A DNA stretch of 64,000 nt from Lyngbya sp. HA4199-MV5 (GTDB lineage Bacteria > Cyanobacteriota > Cyanobacteriia > Leptolyngbyales > Leptolyngbyaceae): contig JAHHHL010000017.1 in NCBI GenBank assembly GCA_019359375.1, positions 62,001 to 126,000 on the forward strand. Direction: 5' to 3'. Below, piece after piece: positions 2,379 through 11,206 of this stretch. Every line of letters starts with the position of its first letter. Within the stretch, counting starts at the first letter, position 1. The translations under genes were made by a program, and so were the position numbers. Under the pieces are notes generated by a model that was not told the DNA's origin, did no database searches, and saw only the letters and a program-made list of their open reading frames with translations.

Positions 2379-2843
2379 TTACGGCAGCACAAGTTTTGCA
2401 GCAGTGATGGCTTGCAGCGCTCGAGGCGATAGCTCAATTTCAACGCCTGCCTCACCCGCGCCGATCAATATGGTTGGAAAAGCCATCAAGCTTCCATCTA
2501 TAAAGACAGACATCGAACCCGCACCGATCGGAGAAATGCCATTGGGTGGATAATCGAGCAACTCTAAAAGAGTCGTTCTGTCTGCCAATTGCAAGCGCTT
2601 GCAGCCCATTTGTGCAGCTATCTGATGCAAGTCTATGCGCTGGTTACTCGGAGCCACGATCAGACAACGCTGCTCTCGGTCTTTTGCCTCTAGCAGCAAG
2701 GTTTTCGTAATGCGACGAATCTCGTAACCCAATGCTTGAGCAACATCATGGGGGCTGCGAATGGGCATCAGCAGGTCTTTATGAACATGCACCTGATAAG
2801 GCGTTCTGGTCTCCTCCAGACATCTCCTGATGCGATCGTGCAT
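2379..2843 (-). CDS. YbaK/aminoacyl-tRNA deacylase domain protein
   Basis: A 155-residue YbaK/ProX-like protein. Family members hydrolyse mischarged aminoacyl-tRNAs such as Cys-tRNA(Pro). Family-like features are the N-terminal helix with VHVHKDLLMPIRSP, the TKTLLLEAKD strand, CLIVAPSNQRIDL, and NGISPIGAGSMSVFIDGSL, which matches the G-x-x-x-P-x-G loop. A longer frame begins with TTG at 2885 and overlaps the stop of the upstream gene; I chose the ATG at 2843, which starts at the first recognisable helix. It follows the 3643-2878 region gene on the same strand and may be co-transcribed. Exact substrate is unknown. Confidence 0.82.
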   Translation of the reverse strand: MHDRIRRCLEETRTPYQVHVHKDLLMPIRSPHDVAQALGYEIRRITKTLLLEAKDREQRCLIVAPSNQRIDLHQIAAQMGCKRLQLADRTTLLELLDYPPNGISPIGAGSMSVFIDGSLMAFPTILIGAGEAGVEIELSPRALQAITAAKLVLP

Positions 2844-2877
2844 AACGGTCACCCTGACGCTTAACACTGTAGGCAGT

Positions 2878-3627
2878 TTACCCAAACGCCTGCGCTAAGC
2901 GAGCAAACGGACATTTGCTGACTTTAGGCGTGACCGGATGATGTTGTGGAAGCGGTGCTACCGGATGATCTTGCACAAGCTGAGACTGTGCCAGAGCTAA
3001 AGCGCTTCGAGCATGACTTAGCTTGCTTTCATCCTTGATGATCGAACTCATGCGATTTAGATAGGCTTGCAGATACCTGACTCGAAGTTGAGGCTGGTCA
3101 CTGATGCGCTCCAGGAAGGGAAGATCTGACTCTGCCATAAACCGAATCGCCAGCATTGGAATCGGGCTACGGAGAGGACGGAAATCAGGATTATGCAGCC
3201 CCGGCGTTTCATTATGCTGATGAAACTCGCCAAGCATGAGACCTTGTTCAACAAAGAAGGGCTTGAGCTTTTGCTGTACCGCATCAATAAGTTCAGGTGC
3301 CTGCTCAGGCGAAACATCGGGAAAGACGAGCATAATGGCTTTGTAAAACGCAAGCTCTCCGCTCTTAGGTTCTAGCTCTAAAAACTGATCCCGGTAGCAA
3401 CGCACAATCTCTTCAACCTGAGCTTGCCCCATTGCCTGTGTGTGAATGACTGCTAGCCGAATGGTGTCAAGTTGCAAGGCACGCGGTACAAACGGACACA
3501 CGGGACCCGATCGCCCCAAATCGGGATGTGGTCTCCCCAAAAAATTCTTGACCCACTCGTTCATTTCGGTTAAACAAGTCAGATCTGGCTGTAGCTGATT
3601 GAGATCAGCAGGTGCAAAAAACTGCAT
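2878..3627 (-). CDS. Conserved protein of unknown function with two CPF motifs (DUF6875-like?)
   Basis: A 249-residue soluble protein without signal peptide or membrane segment. An N-terminal block WVKNFLGRPHPDLGRSG is followed by GPVCPFVPRAL, and the C-terminus ends CPFARLAQAFG, so each end carries a Cys-Pro-Phe motif. The middle has FHQHNETPGLHNPDFRPLRSPIPML, rich in His and Pro, which could bind a ligand or metal. The N-terminal block resembles what I remember of the DUF6875 family, but I am not certain. It is transcribed divergently from the NRPS at 4101 and sits just upstream of the YbaK-like gene. A role with the NRPS is possible from position only. Confidence 0.6.
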   Translation of the reverse strand: MQFFAPADLNQLQPDLTCLTEMNEWVKNFLGRPHPDLGRSGPVCPFVPRALQLDTIRLAVIHTQAMGQAQVEEIVRCYRDQFLELEPKSGELAFYKAIMLVFPDVSPEQAPELIDAVQQKLKPFFVEQGLMLGEFHQHNETPGLHNPDFRPLRSPIPMLAIRFMAESDLPFLERISDQPQLRVRYLQAYLNRMSSIIKDESKLSHARSALALAQSQLVQDHPVAPLPQHHPVTPKVSKCPFARLAQAFG

Positions 3628-4100: not shown

Positions 4101-6809
4101 ATGCAAGGGGACAAACGGACAACTTCAGGCAACCTTTTGACGGCTGAATGCCAGATGTCACCTTCTTTATGGGAAGGGAACCGTGTTGATACAAACCAGG
4201 CAGCATGTATTCATCTTTTGTTTGAAGCACAGGTTGAAAAAACACCCGATGCGATCGCGGCTGTCTTTGAAAACCAGACCTTTACGTACCGGGCATTGAA
4301 CCAACGAGCCAATCAATTGGCACATCACCTGATCAATCAAGGGGTCGGCGCTGATGTGCTTGTTGGCATCTGTGTGGAACGATCGCTGGCGATGCTTGTC
4401 GGGCTGCTCGGCATTCTCAAAGCAGGTGGAGCGTATGTGCCCCTTGATCCCACCTACCCAGCAGAGCGTTTGGCATTTATTCTGGACGATACCCAAGTGC
4501 CTGTTATTCTGACTCAGGCGCATCTGGTTAACAGTTTGCCTGCCTGCGCTGCTCAGGCGATCTGTCTAGACTCTGACTGGGAAGCGCTCAGCCGGAATAC
4601 TTCAGAAAATCCCACCGGGCGAGCGATCGCCAGTAACTTGATGTATGTCATTTACACGTCGGGATCGACTGGTAAACCGAAGGGTGTCATGATTCCTCAC
4701 GCGGGCATTTGGAATCAACTTCACTGGAGACAAACAACCTTTACCCTCACACCAGCAGACCGAGTTTTGCAGTCTATTTCCTTCAGCTTTGACCCGTCTG
4801 TCTGGCAGATCTTTTGGCCATTATCGTTTGGGGCACAGTTGGTCTTGCCAGTTCCAGACGGGCAAAAAGATCTAACCTATCTCATTCAATTAATGGTTCA
4901 ACAGCAGGTAACCGTTACGGCATTGGTGCCATCTCTGCTGCGCGTTTTATTAGCACAGCCAGCGCTGGCTCAGTGTACTTCTTTAAAGCATGTCTTCTGT
5001 GGTGGGGAAGCGTTACCAACTGAGCTGATCGAACAGTTTTATCAGCGCTTTCGGTCAAGTACGCTGTTACACAACGTTTACGGTCCCACCGAAGCCTCGA
5101 TCGACGCAACGTTTTGGACGTGTCAGCCTTGTGTTGATCGTCGGATCGCCCCGATCGGTCGAGCGATCGCAAACACACAAATCCACATTCTTGACGAACA
5201 CCTGCAACCTGTAGCCTCTGGAGAAGCAGGTGAACTGCATATCAGCGGTGCAGGGCTGGCTCGTGGCTATCTCAATCGTGCCAAACTGACGGCTGAAAAG
5301 TTTATTCCTGACCCACACAGCAACGCACCCAATGCCCGTCTCTACAAAACGGGAGATTTGGCACGCTATTTACCCGACGGCAACATTGAATTTCTGGGAC
5401 GCATTGACCATCAAGTAAAAATTAGGGGCTTTCGGATTGAGTTAGGCGAAATTGAAACGGCGCTCAATCAGCATCCTTTGCTTGCTGAAACGGTAGTTAT
5501 TGCCCGTGAAGACTCGCCAGGAAATCATCGTTTAGTTGCTTATGTTGTGCCGTCTGAAAAAGTAGTGCCAACGACAACTGAACTCCGAAGTTTTTTGCAG
5601 GAAAAGCTGCCTGAGTACATGGTGCCATCCGCTTTTGTAGTGCTAAAAGCTTTGCCCTTAAACACAAGCGGTAAGTTAGACCGCCAAGCTCTACCGATCC
5701 CAGACGCAGAAGATTTTGCTTTAGAAACTGCCTTTGAAGCACCAAAAGATGCTTTAGAACAGGATTTAGCACAGCTTTGGGAGCAGGTTTTGAACATTCA
5801 TCCGATCGGGGTGAAAGATAACTTCTTTGAACTAGGGGGAGACTCTCTACTGGCTACCCGCGTGTTGGCTCAAGTCGAAACGCTGCTCGGACAAAACCTA
5901 CCTCTGGCTGTGTTTCAGGAAGCAGCAACAGTAGAAAAACTGGCTGAGTTTATCCGGCGGCAAGATTTGCCCATGACTCAGAAGCCGCTAGTTGCCATTC
6001 AGCCGCAGGGGACACGACCACCGCTCTTCTGCATTCACTCAAGGAACCATCATGTTTTGAACTATTTCCCCTTGGCTCGCTACCTGAACCCCGATCAACC
6101 TGTTTATGGCTTACAGCCATCCACAACAGATATTGACCTGATTACCAAACTCTCAGTCGAAGCACTGGCGACTGAATATATTGGAGAGATACGAACCATT
6201 CAGCCTCATGGTCCCTATTTTTTGCTGGGCTATTCTTTTGGGGGACTGGTTGCCTATGAAATGGCTAGACAACTCACTCTTCAAGGGGAATGCGTTGCAT
6301 TGTTAGCGATGGTTGATACCTACAATTTAAGACAGCCGTGGTTTAGACCTGTACCGATTCATCGTCATCTTTTCAGACGTTTAGCCATTCACAAAGCTGC
6401 TCTTAGCAAGCGGCGACTGAGGGAAAAAGTGAGCTATGGCTGGAAGCTCTTAGCGCAGGACATACAAAAAGAGACAGGCGAACAATCATTGCGGTCGCTT
6501 CAGTCGCCTGCCCCTGAAACTGTGGTGATCGAAGCGGCTTATAGTCAGATGACGCAAAACTACAGCCCTCAAAGCTATCCGGGACGAGCGATCCTGTTTA
6601 GAACACCTCAAGCACCTGAAGAATGGCTGCGTTTGGTTCCCGCTAAAATTGATGCCTTGTTAGGCTGGTCAAAACTAATCGACAGCCTTGAGGTTTGTGA
6701 GCTGCCATGTGACCATTTCAACGTGGTTTTCGAGCCTTTCGTTCAGCATTTAGCAGCAGGGCTACAGAGGTACCTTGATGTTGCTCAGGGTAATGACTCG
6801 ATCGGCTGA
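4101..6809 (+). CDS. Single-module nonribosomal peptide synthetase, A-PCP-TE, no condensation domain
   Basis: A 902-residue NRPS-like enzyme. The adenylation domain (about 35-535) has LKAGGAYVPLDP, YTSGSTGKPKGV, NVYGPTEASI, YKTGDLARY, GRIDHQVKIRGFRIELGEIE and the lysine motif NTSGKLDRQ. Aligned by eye to GrsA, the specificity residues read D-P-W-A-F-G-V-I-D-K; the leading Asp suggests an alpha-amino acid, but I cannot name it. A carrier domain follows (ELGGDSLL, Ser about 582). A type I thioesterase follows, with GYSFGG (Ser 712), Asp about 739 and HF (His about 872). The N-terminal stretch LLTAECQMSPSLWEGN resembles the linker that normally follows a C domain, so the protein may descend from a larger synthetase. 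No other NRPS or PKS genes are near. The start is set by the RBS at 4087 and an in-frame stop at 4092. Confidence 0.93.
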   Translation: MQGDKRTTSGNLLTAECQMSPSLWEGNRVDTNQAACIHLLFEAQVEKTPDAIAAVFENQTFTYRALNQRANQLAHHLINQGVGADVLVGICVERSLAMLVGLLGILKAGGAYVPLDPTYPAERLAFILDDTQVPVILTQAHLVNSLPACAAQAICLDSDWEALSRNTSENPTGRAIASNLMYVIYTSGSTGKPKGVMIPHAGIWNQLHWRQTTFTLTPADRVLQSISFSFDPSVWQIFWPLSFGAQLVLPVPDGQKDLTYLIQLMVQQQVTVTALVPSLLRVLLAQPALAQCTSLKHVFCGGEALPTELIEQFYQRFRSSTLLHNVYGPTEASIDATFWTCQPCVDRRIAPIGRAIANTQIHILDEHLQPVASGEAGELHISGAGLARGYLNRAKLTAEKFIPDPHSNAPNARLYKTGDLARYLPDGNIEFLGRIDHQVKIRGFRIELGEIETALNQHPLLAETVVIAREDSPGNHRLVAYVVPSEKVVPTTTELRSFLQEKLPEYMVPSAFVVLKALPLNTSGKLDRQALPIPDAEDFALETAFEAPKDALEQDLAQLWEQVLNIHPIGVKDNFFELGGDSLLATRVLAQVETLLGQNLPLAVFQEAATVEKLAEFIRRQDLPMTQKPLVAIQPQGTRPPLFCIHSRNHHVLNYFPLARYLNPDQPVYGLQPSTTDIDLITKLSVEALATEYIGEIRTIQPHGPYFLLGYSFGGLVAYEMARQLTLQGECVALLAMVDTYNLRQPWFRPVPIHRHLFRRLAIHKAALSKRRLREKVSYGWKLLAQDIQKETGEQSLRSLQSPAPETVVIEAAYSQMTQNYSPQSYPGRAILFRTPQAPEEWLRLVPAKIDALLGWSKLIDSLEVCELPCDHFNVVFEPFVQHLAAGLQRYLDVAQGNDSIG

Positions 6810-6826
6810 CTCGATTGATCGATTGG

Positions 6827-7705
6827 TCACGAAGGCAATGCTACAGGTGGCACGGCTTTGGTTTCTAGGAGCGCAACACTACGACGGGTGGCTTCCACAA
6901 AGCGGCTAACGCGGATGGGATCGATCGGCTGATCGCGACGACCATGTCGCTTGAGCGATGTAGAGGCAATCACACCATTTGCCGCCTGCATCAGGGTTGG
7001 AACATTCTCCCAATCGGCACCACTGCCAATGAAAACAGGTGTACCGTTTGCGGCAGCAGTCGCGAGTTCTAAATCTTCCAGATTCGGCGGACTCCCTGTA
7101 GCCCATCCAGACAGAATGACGGCATCTGCCAAACCGCGCTCGATCGTATCCTGCACGGCAACGGTGAGGTTGGGTGAACTCAGCGGACGAGCATGTTTGA
7201 CCAACACATCCGCAAAGATTTTGACATCGCTGCCCAACTCACGCCGATAACGGAGCAGTTCATGGGCGTTGCCTTCAATGAGCCCCTGATCAGTTGCCAT
7301 CACGCCTGTGAGCACATTGACGCGGATGAATTGCGTCTGCGTACAGGTGGCGATCGCCAGCGCACTCCGCCCATCATTCCGCAGCACGTTAATGCCAATC
7401 GGAAGCGTCACCATCTGCTGTAGCCGATGCACGACCAGGCTCATCGCACTCACAACCGCTGGATCAACATGCTCTTTGGGGAACGGTGCATCAAAAAAGT
7501 TTTCGACAATGATGCCATCCACACCACCGGAAGCAAGAGCAGTCGCTTCTTGTTCGGCGCGATCGATGACCGCTTTCAGGCTACCGCCCCATAGCGCCGA
7601 AGTGGGCAGTGGCAATAAATGAACCACACCAATGATCGGGTTGGAAGTTTTGAAAATTTGAAGTAAGTCCACAGGCGTAAAAAATTCGGACTCATCTGAG
7701 TGCAT
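6827..7705 (-). CDS. btpA: BtpA family protein (photosystem I biogenesis)
   Basis: A 292-residue TIM-barrel-like protein of the BtpA/SgcQ family. Diagnostic stretches are PIIGVVHLLPLPTS near the N-terminus, GVDGIIVENFFDAPF, LPIGINVLRND, FIRVNVLTGVM, DVLVKHARPL and TPVFIGSGA with IASTSLKR. In Synechocystis, BtpA is a thylakoid-associated factor needed to accumulate photosystem I reaction-centre proteins; that role is assigned here by family. It is convergent with the NRPS, whose stop is 18 bases away, so the two are separate units. Confidence 0.93.
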   Translation of the reverse strand: MHSDESEFFTPVDLLQIFKTSNPIIGVVHLLPLPTSALWGGSLKAVIDRAEQEATALASGGVDGIIVENFFDAPFPKEHVDPAVVSAMSLVVHRLQQMVTLPIGINVLRNDGRSALAIATCTQTQFIRVNVLTGVMATDQGLIEGNAHELLRYRRELGSDVKIFADVLVKHARPLSSPNLTVAVQDTIERGLADAVILSGWATGSPPNLEDLELATAAANGTPVFIGSGADWENVPTLMQAANGVIASTSLKRHGRRDQPIDPIRVSRFVEATRRSVALLETKAVPPVALPS

Positions 7706-9744: not shown

Positions 9745-11100
9745 ATGGGCAACAAGCCAACGATTGCCGTCGCACATTTAGGCTGCGAGAAAAACCGAAT
9801 TGATACAGAGCATATGCTGGGGCTTTTAGTCCAGGCGGGTTATGAGGTCGATGCCAACGAAGCATTAGCGGATTTCGTCGTTGTCAACACATGCAGTTTT
9901 ATCCAGGACGCACGCGAAGAATCGGTACGAACGCTGGTAGAGCTAGCCGAGGCAGACAAGAAGATTGTCATCACGGGCTGTATGGCGCAGCATTTTCAGG
10001 AGCAGCTTTTAGAAGAGATCCCGGAAGCTGTTGCGCTGGTCGGTACAGGTGATTATCACAAAATTGTCAACGTGCTTGAGCGGGCTGAAGCCGGAGAACG
10101 CGTCCAGGAAGTTTCTCAGGAGCCGACATACATTGCTGACGAGACCACACCCCGCTACCGCACGACCACCGAAGGTGTAGCCTATCTCAGAATTGCCGAA
10201 GGCTGCGACTATGGGTGTGCCTTTTGCATCATTCCCCATCTGCGGGGCAAACAGCGATCGCGCCCTATTGAATCGATCGTGGCAGAAGCCGAGCGTTTGG
10301 CTGCTGAGGGCGTGCGGGAAATTATTCTGATTTCCCAAATCACCACGAACTATGGGTTAGATATCTATGGCGAACCTCGGCTAGCAGAGCTGTTGCGAGC
10401 GCTGGGTCGTGTAGATATTCCCTGGATTCGGATGCACTACGCGTATCCAACGGGATTGACCCCCCGCGTCCTTGCGGCTATTCAAGAAACGCCCAACGTT
10501 TTGCCCTATCTCGATTTGCCGCTTCAGCACTCCCATCCAGAGGTGCTGCGATCGATGAATCGTCCGTGGCAGGGGCGGGTGAATGACGGGGTAATCGATC
10601 GCATTAAAGCGGCGATCCCCAACGCGGTGCTGCGAACCACCTTCATTGTTGGGTTCCCCGGTGAAACGGATGAGCACTTCCAGCATTTGCTGGAGTTTGT
10701 CCAACGCCACGAATTTGATCATGTAGGCGTTTTTACCTTCTCTGCCGAGGAGGGCACGCCTGCCTATACCTTGCCTAATCAGCTTCCTCAGACTGTGATG
10801 GACGAGCGGCGAGATGCGCTAATGACTACTCAGCAGCCCATTTCACTCAAGCGAAATCGGCTCGAAGTGGGCAAGGTAGTGGATGTGCTGATCGAGCAAG
10901 AAAACCCTGAGACGGGCGAATTGATTGGTCGCTCGGCTCGTTTCTCACCCGATGTGGATGGCTTGGTGTATGTCCAAGGTCATGCTGCTCTGGGATCACT
11001 GGTGCCCGTGACGATCGCCGATGCCGATGTGTACGACCTGTATGGTCATGTGGCGATCGCCTCCGACCTCATTCGCATGCAGCTACTGGCGGTTCCTTGA
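9745..11100 (+). CDS. rimO: Ribosomal protein S12 methylthiotransferase RimO
   Basis: A 451-residue radical-SAM methylthiotransferase that adds a methylthio group to an aspartate of ribosomal protein S12. The N-terminal UPF0004 domain begins [15 protein letters not shown] with cysteines in GCEKN, NTCSF and GCMAQ for the second iron-sulfur cluster. The radical-SAM cluster motif is [12 protein letters not shown] (about residues 153-164). A C-terminal TRAM domain ([14 protein letters not shown] onward) follows. The RimO-type NTCSFI and GTGDY, rather than MiaB motifs, support the subtype. AGGA lies about six bases before the ATG. Confidence 0.95.
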
Positions 11101-11206
11101 GTTCATGATGTGGGCTAAATGCATCTGCTCAAGCCTGCTTGTGTCATCTTTTTGCTGTCAATTCTTTGCAATCAACGTACTCTCATACCCTTAACTAGGA
11201 GATTCA

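Follow-up and report, generated by a model that had tools for sequence, protein, structure and literature searches.

What might a single-module nonribosomal peptide synthetase (NRPS) do when it carries no condensation (C) domain and none is found elsewhere in its genome? A 64,000-nucleotide stretch of Lyngbya sp. HA4199-MV5 (contig JAHHHL010000017.1, positions 62,001 to 126,000; here called the window) raises this question, since one open reading frame on its forward strand (4101..6809) encodes a 902-residue protein made up of an adenylation (A), a peptidyl carrier (PCP), and a thioesterase (TE) domain. Divergent from this gene, on the reverse strand at 2878..3627, lies the gene for a 249-residue protein of the DUF6875 family (PF21780), a putative thiolate-heme oxygenase with an invariant cysteine, Cys44, and directly downstream of the latter, at 2379..2885 on the same strand, is a gene for a YbaK-like aminoacyl-tRNA editing protein. 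These two neighbors, named only in passing in an initial annotation made from the sequence alone, proved to be the best lead to function. With moderate confidence, we favor the view that the A-PCP-TE protein and DUF6875 constitute a two-gene pathway for an oxidized amino acid, on the grounds of their co-occurrence, their gene order, the single clade formed by the A domains, plasmid neighborhoods, the chemistry reported for the DUF6875 family, and the rank of AglA in Foldseek structure searches. An orphan single-module NRPS would thereby become a testable two- or three-gene pathway.

A single A-domain clade co-occurs with DUF6875

Alignment of the code positions of the A domain (aa 231, 232, 235, 274, 299, 301, 326, 334, 335, and 525) yielded DPWAFGVIDK, the same code as read in the initial annotation. 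The phylogeny that the annotation had proposed as a check was built from 76 A domains scoring >560 bits, out of 213 distinct matches covering 480 or more query residues, of which the 137 weaker ones were left out. The 33 A domains with a DPW-type code (32 DPW and one DPM) formed one branch, with a Shimodaira-Hasegawa-like approximate likelihood ratio test (SH-aLRT) support of 99, adjoining A domains with codes DVWH.SL.DK and DAWQFGLIDK, which we take to be Ser type and Gln type, respectively. The consensus over the 32 DPW members is DPW[ATG][FTSI]G[CV]IDK, and none of six code strings looked for was met in the literature searched. Judged by open-frame length, 12 of the 33 clade members are single-module proteins (window, L001-L008, L100, L135, and L145), 17 are of bimodular size (about 1960-2010 aa), and four have other lengths (L015, L141, L146, and L147). 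The single-module members occur at no fewer than three places in the tree, and modules were therefore gained or lost more than once. One genome, G407, carries L147 (code DPMATGSIEK, in a 2485-aa open frame) as a second clade member beside a normal DPW-type gene.

DUF6875 was detected in 11 genomes, of six genera, among 386 that sample the cyanobacterial phylum evenly, and a DPW-type A domain is present in all 11. An A-domain search of the same sample, which scored only three candidates per genome, returned 12 genomes at E ≤ 1e-222; ten were of the DPW type, all of them DUF6875 positive, and the remaining two (G062 and G255) had Ser or Gln codes and were DUF6875 negative. The remaining DUF6875 genome, G127, escaped this search and was found from the DUF6875 side, where the A domain adjoins the gene (L104). 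The chance of hitting the same 11 of 386 is 1.6e-21, a figure that ignores kinship (6 genera) and imperfect A-domain recall. Likewise, each of the 17 genomes initially selected by their A domain had exactly one DUF6875 match, and among 27 further cyanobacterial genomes with NRPS relatives, seven had a DUF6875 match, six of these over the cut-off and all six with a DPW-type A domain. In the other 21 genomes (one of which, G411, has a sub-cut-off DUF6875), no DPW-type A domain was found at E ≤ 1e-215, not all candidates being scored in four of them; five had a match at that level, all with Ser-type codes, and one of the 21, G429, matches sample genome G062 in its coordinates. Nine noncyanobacterial genomes with NRPS relatives gave no DUF6875 match, and neither did the controls of that search. 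A newly described heme family is tied to NRPS initiation modules of one code type, in a DUF6875-positive set of no more than 32 distinct cyanobacterial genomes: the 11 sample genomes, the 17 selected by their A domain (where L005 and L006 have the coordinates of sample genomes), and the 6 further ones.

The two genes lie close together in 9 of the 17 genomes (L001-L007, L009, and L015); among the 11 sample genomes this holds for 5, and among the 6 further ones for 3. A search for the same gene order, also proposed in the initial annotation, recovered the pair in three arrangements: divergent in the window and in L001-L003; with DUF6875 upstream on the same strand in L005-L007, L009, L015, L100, and L109 (at a gap of 8-10 bases in L005, L006, and L109, taking the longest open reading frames); and with DUF6875 downstream of the NRPS gene in L004. 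The window order CtpA-YbaK-DUF6875-NRPS-BtpA is conserved in L001. In five sample genomes (L102, L103, and L105-L107), DUF6875 stands apart from the NRPS gene, in a common neighborhood of its own. The annotation had stated that no tailoring genes are near apart from a "CPF-motif gene," which is DUF6875, and the YbaK-like gene; both are indeed present, but this wording undersells them, as DUF6875 is a recurrent partner. Carrier-based amino acid activation with a heme-type oxygenase is already known as a kind, and no paper describing the A-PCP-TE and DUF6875 pair was met in our literature searches, as judged by the titles and abstract starts of the papers listed.

A complete module and its substrate code

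A Pfam scan of the 902-residue protein gave AMP-binding at 41-391 (316 bits), AMP-binding_C at 450-525, PP-binding at 555-618, and Thioesterase at 641-741, and no Condensation domain. Together with the code residues, the scan delimits the A domain to aa 41-525 (4221..5675, forward strand), where TIGR01733 matched in a single uninterrupted stretch of 405 residues, end to end, with 480 bits versus a cut-off of 317. The PCP domain (aa 555-618; 5763..5954, forward strand) has its carrier serine, Ser582, in the motif LGGDSL, and the TE domain (aa 641 to the end; 6021..6806, forward strand) contains Ser712, Asp739, and His872, which presumably form the catalytic triad, given the usual motif positions of NRPS thioesterases. 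Thus, the C-less single A-PCP-TE module described in the initial annotation was confirmed, with intact active-site residues, and release of an amino acid or oligomer by the TE, as suggested there, is the natural outcome for such a module. The host assembly (6.9 Mb in 95 contigs, with a completeness figure of 100%) yielded no match to PF00668 (Condensation) among four candidates scored, the same model having matched 4 of 14 control genomes, and seven matches to TIGR01733, of which the window NRPS alone was over the cut-off. Thus, the search of the assembly revealed no C-domain partner for the module. Since an in-frame stop lies only two codons ahead of the ATG, no C domain is hidden in frame either; the nearby in-frame C domain that the annotation had named as evidence against a lone module was looked for and found neither there nor genome-wide.

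The N terminus of the protein does resemble the linker that follows a C domain, as the annotation had noticed, for phmmer extended its alignment out to residue 11 against McyB (8hlk, chain residue 447 onward) and out to residue 21 against McyA (8jbr, 451 onward). The further claim that the protein is a truncated derivative of a larger enzyme did not hold. In a genome-collection scan for NRPS relatives, in which the best 80 of 111 loci were kept, L001-L007 (52-79% identity to the window protein) and L008, which sits near a contig end, are complete A-PCP-TE proteins sharing this start, their open frames leaving room for 2-41 residues at most ahead of the window's first residue. The intact homologue with this N terminus as its true start, named in the annotation as refuting evidence, was thereby found. 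L009, L011-L014, L016, L019, and L026 have this A-PCP at their start, are 1073-1087 residues longer, and have two A-domain codes each; the full sequence of L009 reads A-PCP-C-A-PCP-TE, and of the 17 clade members of about 2000 aa, the 8 read in named genomes also start with the DPW-type A domain. In L015 this domain lies within a 3333-aa protein, behind C-A-PCP, and L003 retains a fuller linker; in view of these two cases, the linker-like N terminus probably goes back to an ancestral elongation module and does not reflect damage. Such a start is usual for initiation modules, and GrsA begins likewise. The TEs of L005 and L006 share 54-64% identity with the TEs of three bimodular proteins (L009, L014, and L016), consistent with loss of the inner C-A-PCP; in these relatives a module was lost inside the protein and not at its N terminus. 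For L007, L008, and the window, TE identity to the same three is just 34-39%, and these TEs therefore have another history.

The code itself allows no substrate to be named with confidence. DPWAFGVIDK shares 7 of 10 letters with the Gln-type code DAWQFGLIDK (A→P, Q→A, and L→V account for the three differences), 4 of 10 with the tryptophan code DGWAVASVCK, and 3 of 10 with the kynurenine code DAWTTTGVGK, the last two as given in the available text of PMC9113097. A tryptophan-derived substrate is our leading guess, a tentative one that we hold to be somewhat less probable than its opposite; it is prompted by the DUF6875 family chemistry, by trp genes in three Streptomyces loci, and by the small pocket residues A278, G301, and C/V322, which were counted for tryptophan or hydroxytryptophan. 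Two other identities were rejected. Indigoidine synthetases of the BpsA type have an oxidase domain inserted in the A domain; Pfam placed no domain there, and the TIGR01733 match is unbroken. The aryl-keto-acid enzymes (atromentin or ralfuranone type) have lost the equivalent of Asp235, which is present in the window protein as Asp231.

The DUF6875 and YbaK-like proteins

The DUF6875 protein of the window scored 222.1 bits against PF21780, versus a curated cut-off of 24.5. The available text of PMC13307353, the zigralone paper, reports DUF6875 as a family in which some members are heme proteins that oxidize tryptophan, L-tryptophan itself being the substrate, and cites a bioRxiv preprint with "cytochrome P422" (ZigI) in its title; that P422 and DUF6875 are one family is our reading of this citation. 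Beyond that paper, our literature searches met none naming DUF6875 and none on tryptophan 7-hydroxylation or P422. The window protein resembles those heme proteins in its Pfam family, matched over the cut-off, and in the invariant cysteine, and the difference is that the cyanobacterial members accompany an NRPS initiation module. Cys44 is invariant in ten cyanobacterial DUF6875 proteins, and across 13 proteins chosen from cyanobacteria, Streptomyces, and Rhizobium it is so together with R39, V43, G133, F135, N146, P155, P157, R162, D168, and F171. The invariance of Cys44 is the feature of these sequences that supports heme binding and tryptophan oxidation as reported for the family.

With an AlphaFold model built from ten sequences, Foldseek returned five AglA entries at ranks 1-5 (prob 0.96-0.99). 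AglA is a heme N-hydroxylase with Cys44 as its heme ligand, according to the available text of PMC12866846. The YqcI/YcgG heme N-hydroxylases (AglA and GntA) are like DUF6875 in size, in the four strands flanked by helices that the weak model shows, and in this top rank, and unlike it in sequence, with 7-10% identity in structural alignments; the shared 44 of the cysteine is a likeness in number. A Pfam scan of DUF6875 proteins listed no cross-match to the YqcI/YcgG family, and searches of PDB sequences with DUF6875 gave either no match or unrelated weak ones with E ≥ 0.17. The DUF6875 protein of L007 also matches DUF1415 weakly (E of 2.6e-4, below the cut-off), and DUF6875, DUF1415, and YqcI/YcgG may form one heme superfamily. 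The protein at 7069-7647 of L201, just over the DUF6875 cut-off and with a CPF motif of its own, looks like DUF1415.

The YbaK-like protein, of the INS superfamily, matched tRNA_edit (PF04073) with 87 bits and is below the TIGR00011 YbaK equivalog cut-off (86.4 versus 153.25 bits); it also matches solved YbaK structures. With the listed TTG taken as its start codon, the gene overlaps DUF6875 by 8 bp; an ATG follows 14 codons downstream of this TTG. At E ≤ 1e-15, the window's own genome was the only one with a match in the 386-genome sample, and L001 and L002 have the gene at 70 and 64% identity, both adjoining DUF6875. Among 10 of 78 plasmid records listed, Rhizobium proteins matched with E of 8e-22 to 2e-21 and plain YbaK with 8e-12 to 2e-11. 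The gene directly follows DUF6875 in four Rhizobium records (H17, H18, H19, and H20) and in two near-identical genome loci (G691 and G481) whose proteins are like those of the Rhizobium plasmids. Thus, the YbaK-like gene is a rare subfamily linked to DUF6875 in two distant groups. Stand-alone editing as protection is described for CtdA, a protein from another editing family that protects against the amino acid antimetabolite canavanine (PMC10018355, available text); among the titles and abstract starts listed in our literature search, none dealt with a YbaK-type protein protecting the producer as part of a biosynthetic cluster.

Outside the cyanobacteria, 61 plasmid records with DUF6875 were collected, 42 of them from Rhizobium, and 13 neighborhoods were read. 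An NRPS gene starting with an A domain lies directly 3' of DUF6875 in three (H11, H12, and H14) and trp genes lie near it in three others (H1, H2, and H15), all from Streptomyces, and YbaK was seen in two (H17 and H20); none of the three was noted in H4, H8, or H13, and tblastn of the unannotated H7 and H9 showed DUF6875 only. Three Streptomyces plasmid loci (L179, L180, and L185) have TauD-type dioxygenase genes, DUF6875, an A-first NRPS of 2340-2400 aa, and then lysA or asnB. In another Streptomyces plasmid locus (L187, 9420-15380), ATP-grasp, "histidine decarboxylase," DUF6875, a major facilitator superfamily transporter, and trpA stand in a row that looks like a pathway for a small tryptophan-derived product. 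On nod-type plasmids of Rhizobium (L181, about 9875-11175; L184, about 5779-7177), DUF6875 is directly followed by a YbaK-like gene at most ~9 kb from nodD3, with no NRPS gene in these stretches; the pair is a possible case of symbiosis-linked amino acid oxidation with tRNA editing. In Pseudomonadota (the phylum being taken from the record title of L042), PF21780 matched in 8 of 398 genomes, in 6 over the cut-off, and the six neighborhoods were read, leaving out the sub-cut-off G580 and G734. Two of the six are the YbaK-bearing G691 and G481; by tblastn, G724, G687, and G760 showed neither YbaK nor the NRPS, and the protein of G596, just over the cut-off, looks by eye like a DUF1415 protein.

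A proposed pathway and its alternatives

In the pathway that we propose from these comparisons, DUF6875, as an enzyme of thiolate-heme type, would oxidize an amino acid, free or on the carrier, the leading guess being tryptophan or a derivative. The A domain would activate the amino acid and load it onto Ser582 of the PCP, and since the protein has no C domain, the TE would end the cycle, with Ser712/Asp739/His872 releasing the acid or joining the amino acid to an external nucleophile or a second copy. The YbaK-like protein of this lineage may hydrolyze tRNA mischarged with the oxidized amino acid. An extended scheme strikes us as doubtful: DUF6875, as a CPF-type heme oxygenase, would make a toxic or mistranslation-prone oxidized amino acid, the stand-alone A-PCP-TE with its new substrate code would capture it for release or conjugation, and a YbaK-subfamily enzyme devoted to this task would clear it from tRNA, giving a three-gene cassette with its own proofreading. 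Were it true, trans-editing would keep the producer from poisoning its own ribosomes. The DUF6875-YbaK half of the cassette is found again on Rhizobium symbiosis plasmids, where the NRPS is missing; tRNA trans-editing is suggested as self-protection for the producer of an unusual amino acid.

Several observations weigh against the two-gene pathway or parts of the wider proposal. The co-occurrence counts genomes and not independent events, and absence of the A domain from DUF6875-negative genomes is not proven, given three scored candidates per genome and the missed G127. Proximity of the two genes was not observed in 8 of the 17 genomes, among them L008, which is a contig end, and the NRPS codes of the Streptomyces plasmids differ from the DPW type. 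YbaK was seen in only 3 of the 26 cyanobacterial loci compared and was not found by tblastn in Rhizobium records H7 and H9, which have a different type of DUF6875. The structure model of DUF6875 is weak, with a mean predicted local distance difference test score of 65; its AglA matches have E of 2.4e-3 to 3.2e-3, all above 0.001, and template modeling (TM) scores of 0.26-0.33, and VIA-align to AglA gave Z of 7.5-8.0 over 133-154 residues at a root mean square deviation of 3.9-5.3, tied with small alpha/beta folds (IF3 and Smr; 78-92 residues). Finally, the A domain has Ser and Gln A domains as its sister group and retains Asp at position 331, which together with the Gln-like code speaks for a polar substrate rather than plain tryptophan.

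DUF6875 might instead be active solely on an amino acid bound to the carrier, with the TE then hydrolyzing off the product as a free beta-hydroxy or N-hydroxy amino acid; carrier-bound oxidation has a model in the cytochrome P450 NikQ, which acts with the carrier protein NikP1. The window set resembles such pairs of A-PCP and heme monooxygenase in having one amino acid on a carrier, an oxygenase, and release by a TE, and differs from them in that its oxygenase is not a P450, its TE is fused, and it may include a tRNA-editing gene. In favor of oxidation on the carrier, a carrier, a TE, and an oxygenase-type protein are tied in one pathway, and DUF6875 pairs with the initiation module in single-module and bimodular proteins alike. 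We nevertheless consider it rather improbable: the family is reported, in the available text of PMC13307353, to oxidize L-tryptophan itself, and the stretches read from Rhizobium have DUF6875 beside YbaK and contain no NRPS gene, which suggests that the amino acid is oxidized in free form. That the module is the degenerating remnant of a larger NRPS pathway, its neighbors being there by chance, appears very unlikely, for the linker-like N terminus and the lack of any other TIGR01733 match over the cut-off or C domain in the genome are set against intact active-site motifs, eight full-length homologues with the same start, and a partner gene conserved in three arrangements.

Least probable is a MysE-like role, joining serine to mycosporine-glycine to give shinorine. 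MysE (Ava_3855 type) comes from the same phylum and has the same A-PCP-TE architecture, without a C domain in most cyanobacteria having it, according to the available text of PMC7693272 and PMC4558948, and the neighboring A-domain clade carries Ser-type codes. The window protein has another A-domain code, however, sharing 5 of 10 letters with the Ser code DVWHISLIDK, and a DUF6875 partner. The lone dehydroquinate (DHQ) synthase family match in the host genome is AroB, over the equivalog cut-off, with no MysA found, and 19 DPW-type loci contain no DHQ synthase. According to the available part of PMC4558948, a C domain is present in the MysE encoded by the mys cluster of C. fritschii PCC 6912, whereas the DPW-type L007 of the same strain has none and sits with DUF6875. 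With no mys cluster or MysA found and a code not of the serine type, the MysE identity is largely refuted.

The two-gene pathway that we favor would extend to many Nostocales, where the same initiation module is fused to C-A-PCP-TE and a dipeptide product would be expected; such dipeptides, predicted from the bimodular Nostoc relatives, could be searched for in culture extracts. The last A domain of L009, L011-L015, L016, L019, and L026 has the code DVRHFALLAK (DVRHLALLAK in L019) or DPRHFAFQAK. DVRHFALLAK was not found in the literature searched, and we take these codes to look like those of Lys2-type A domains.

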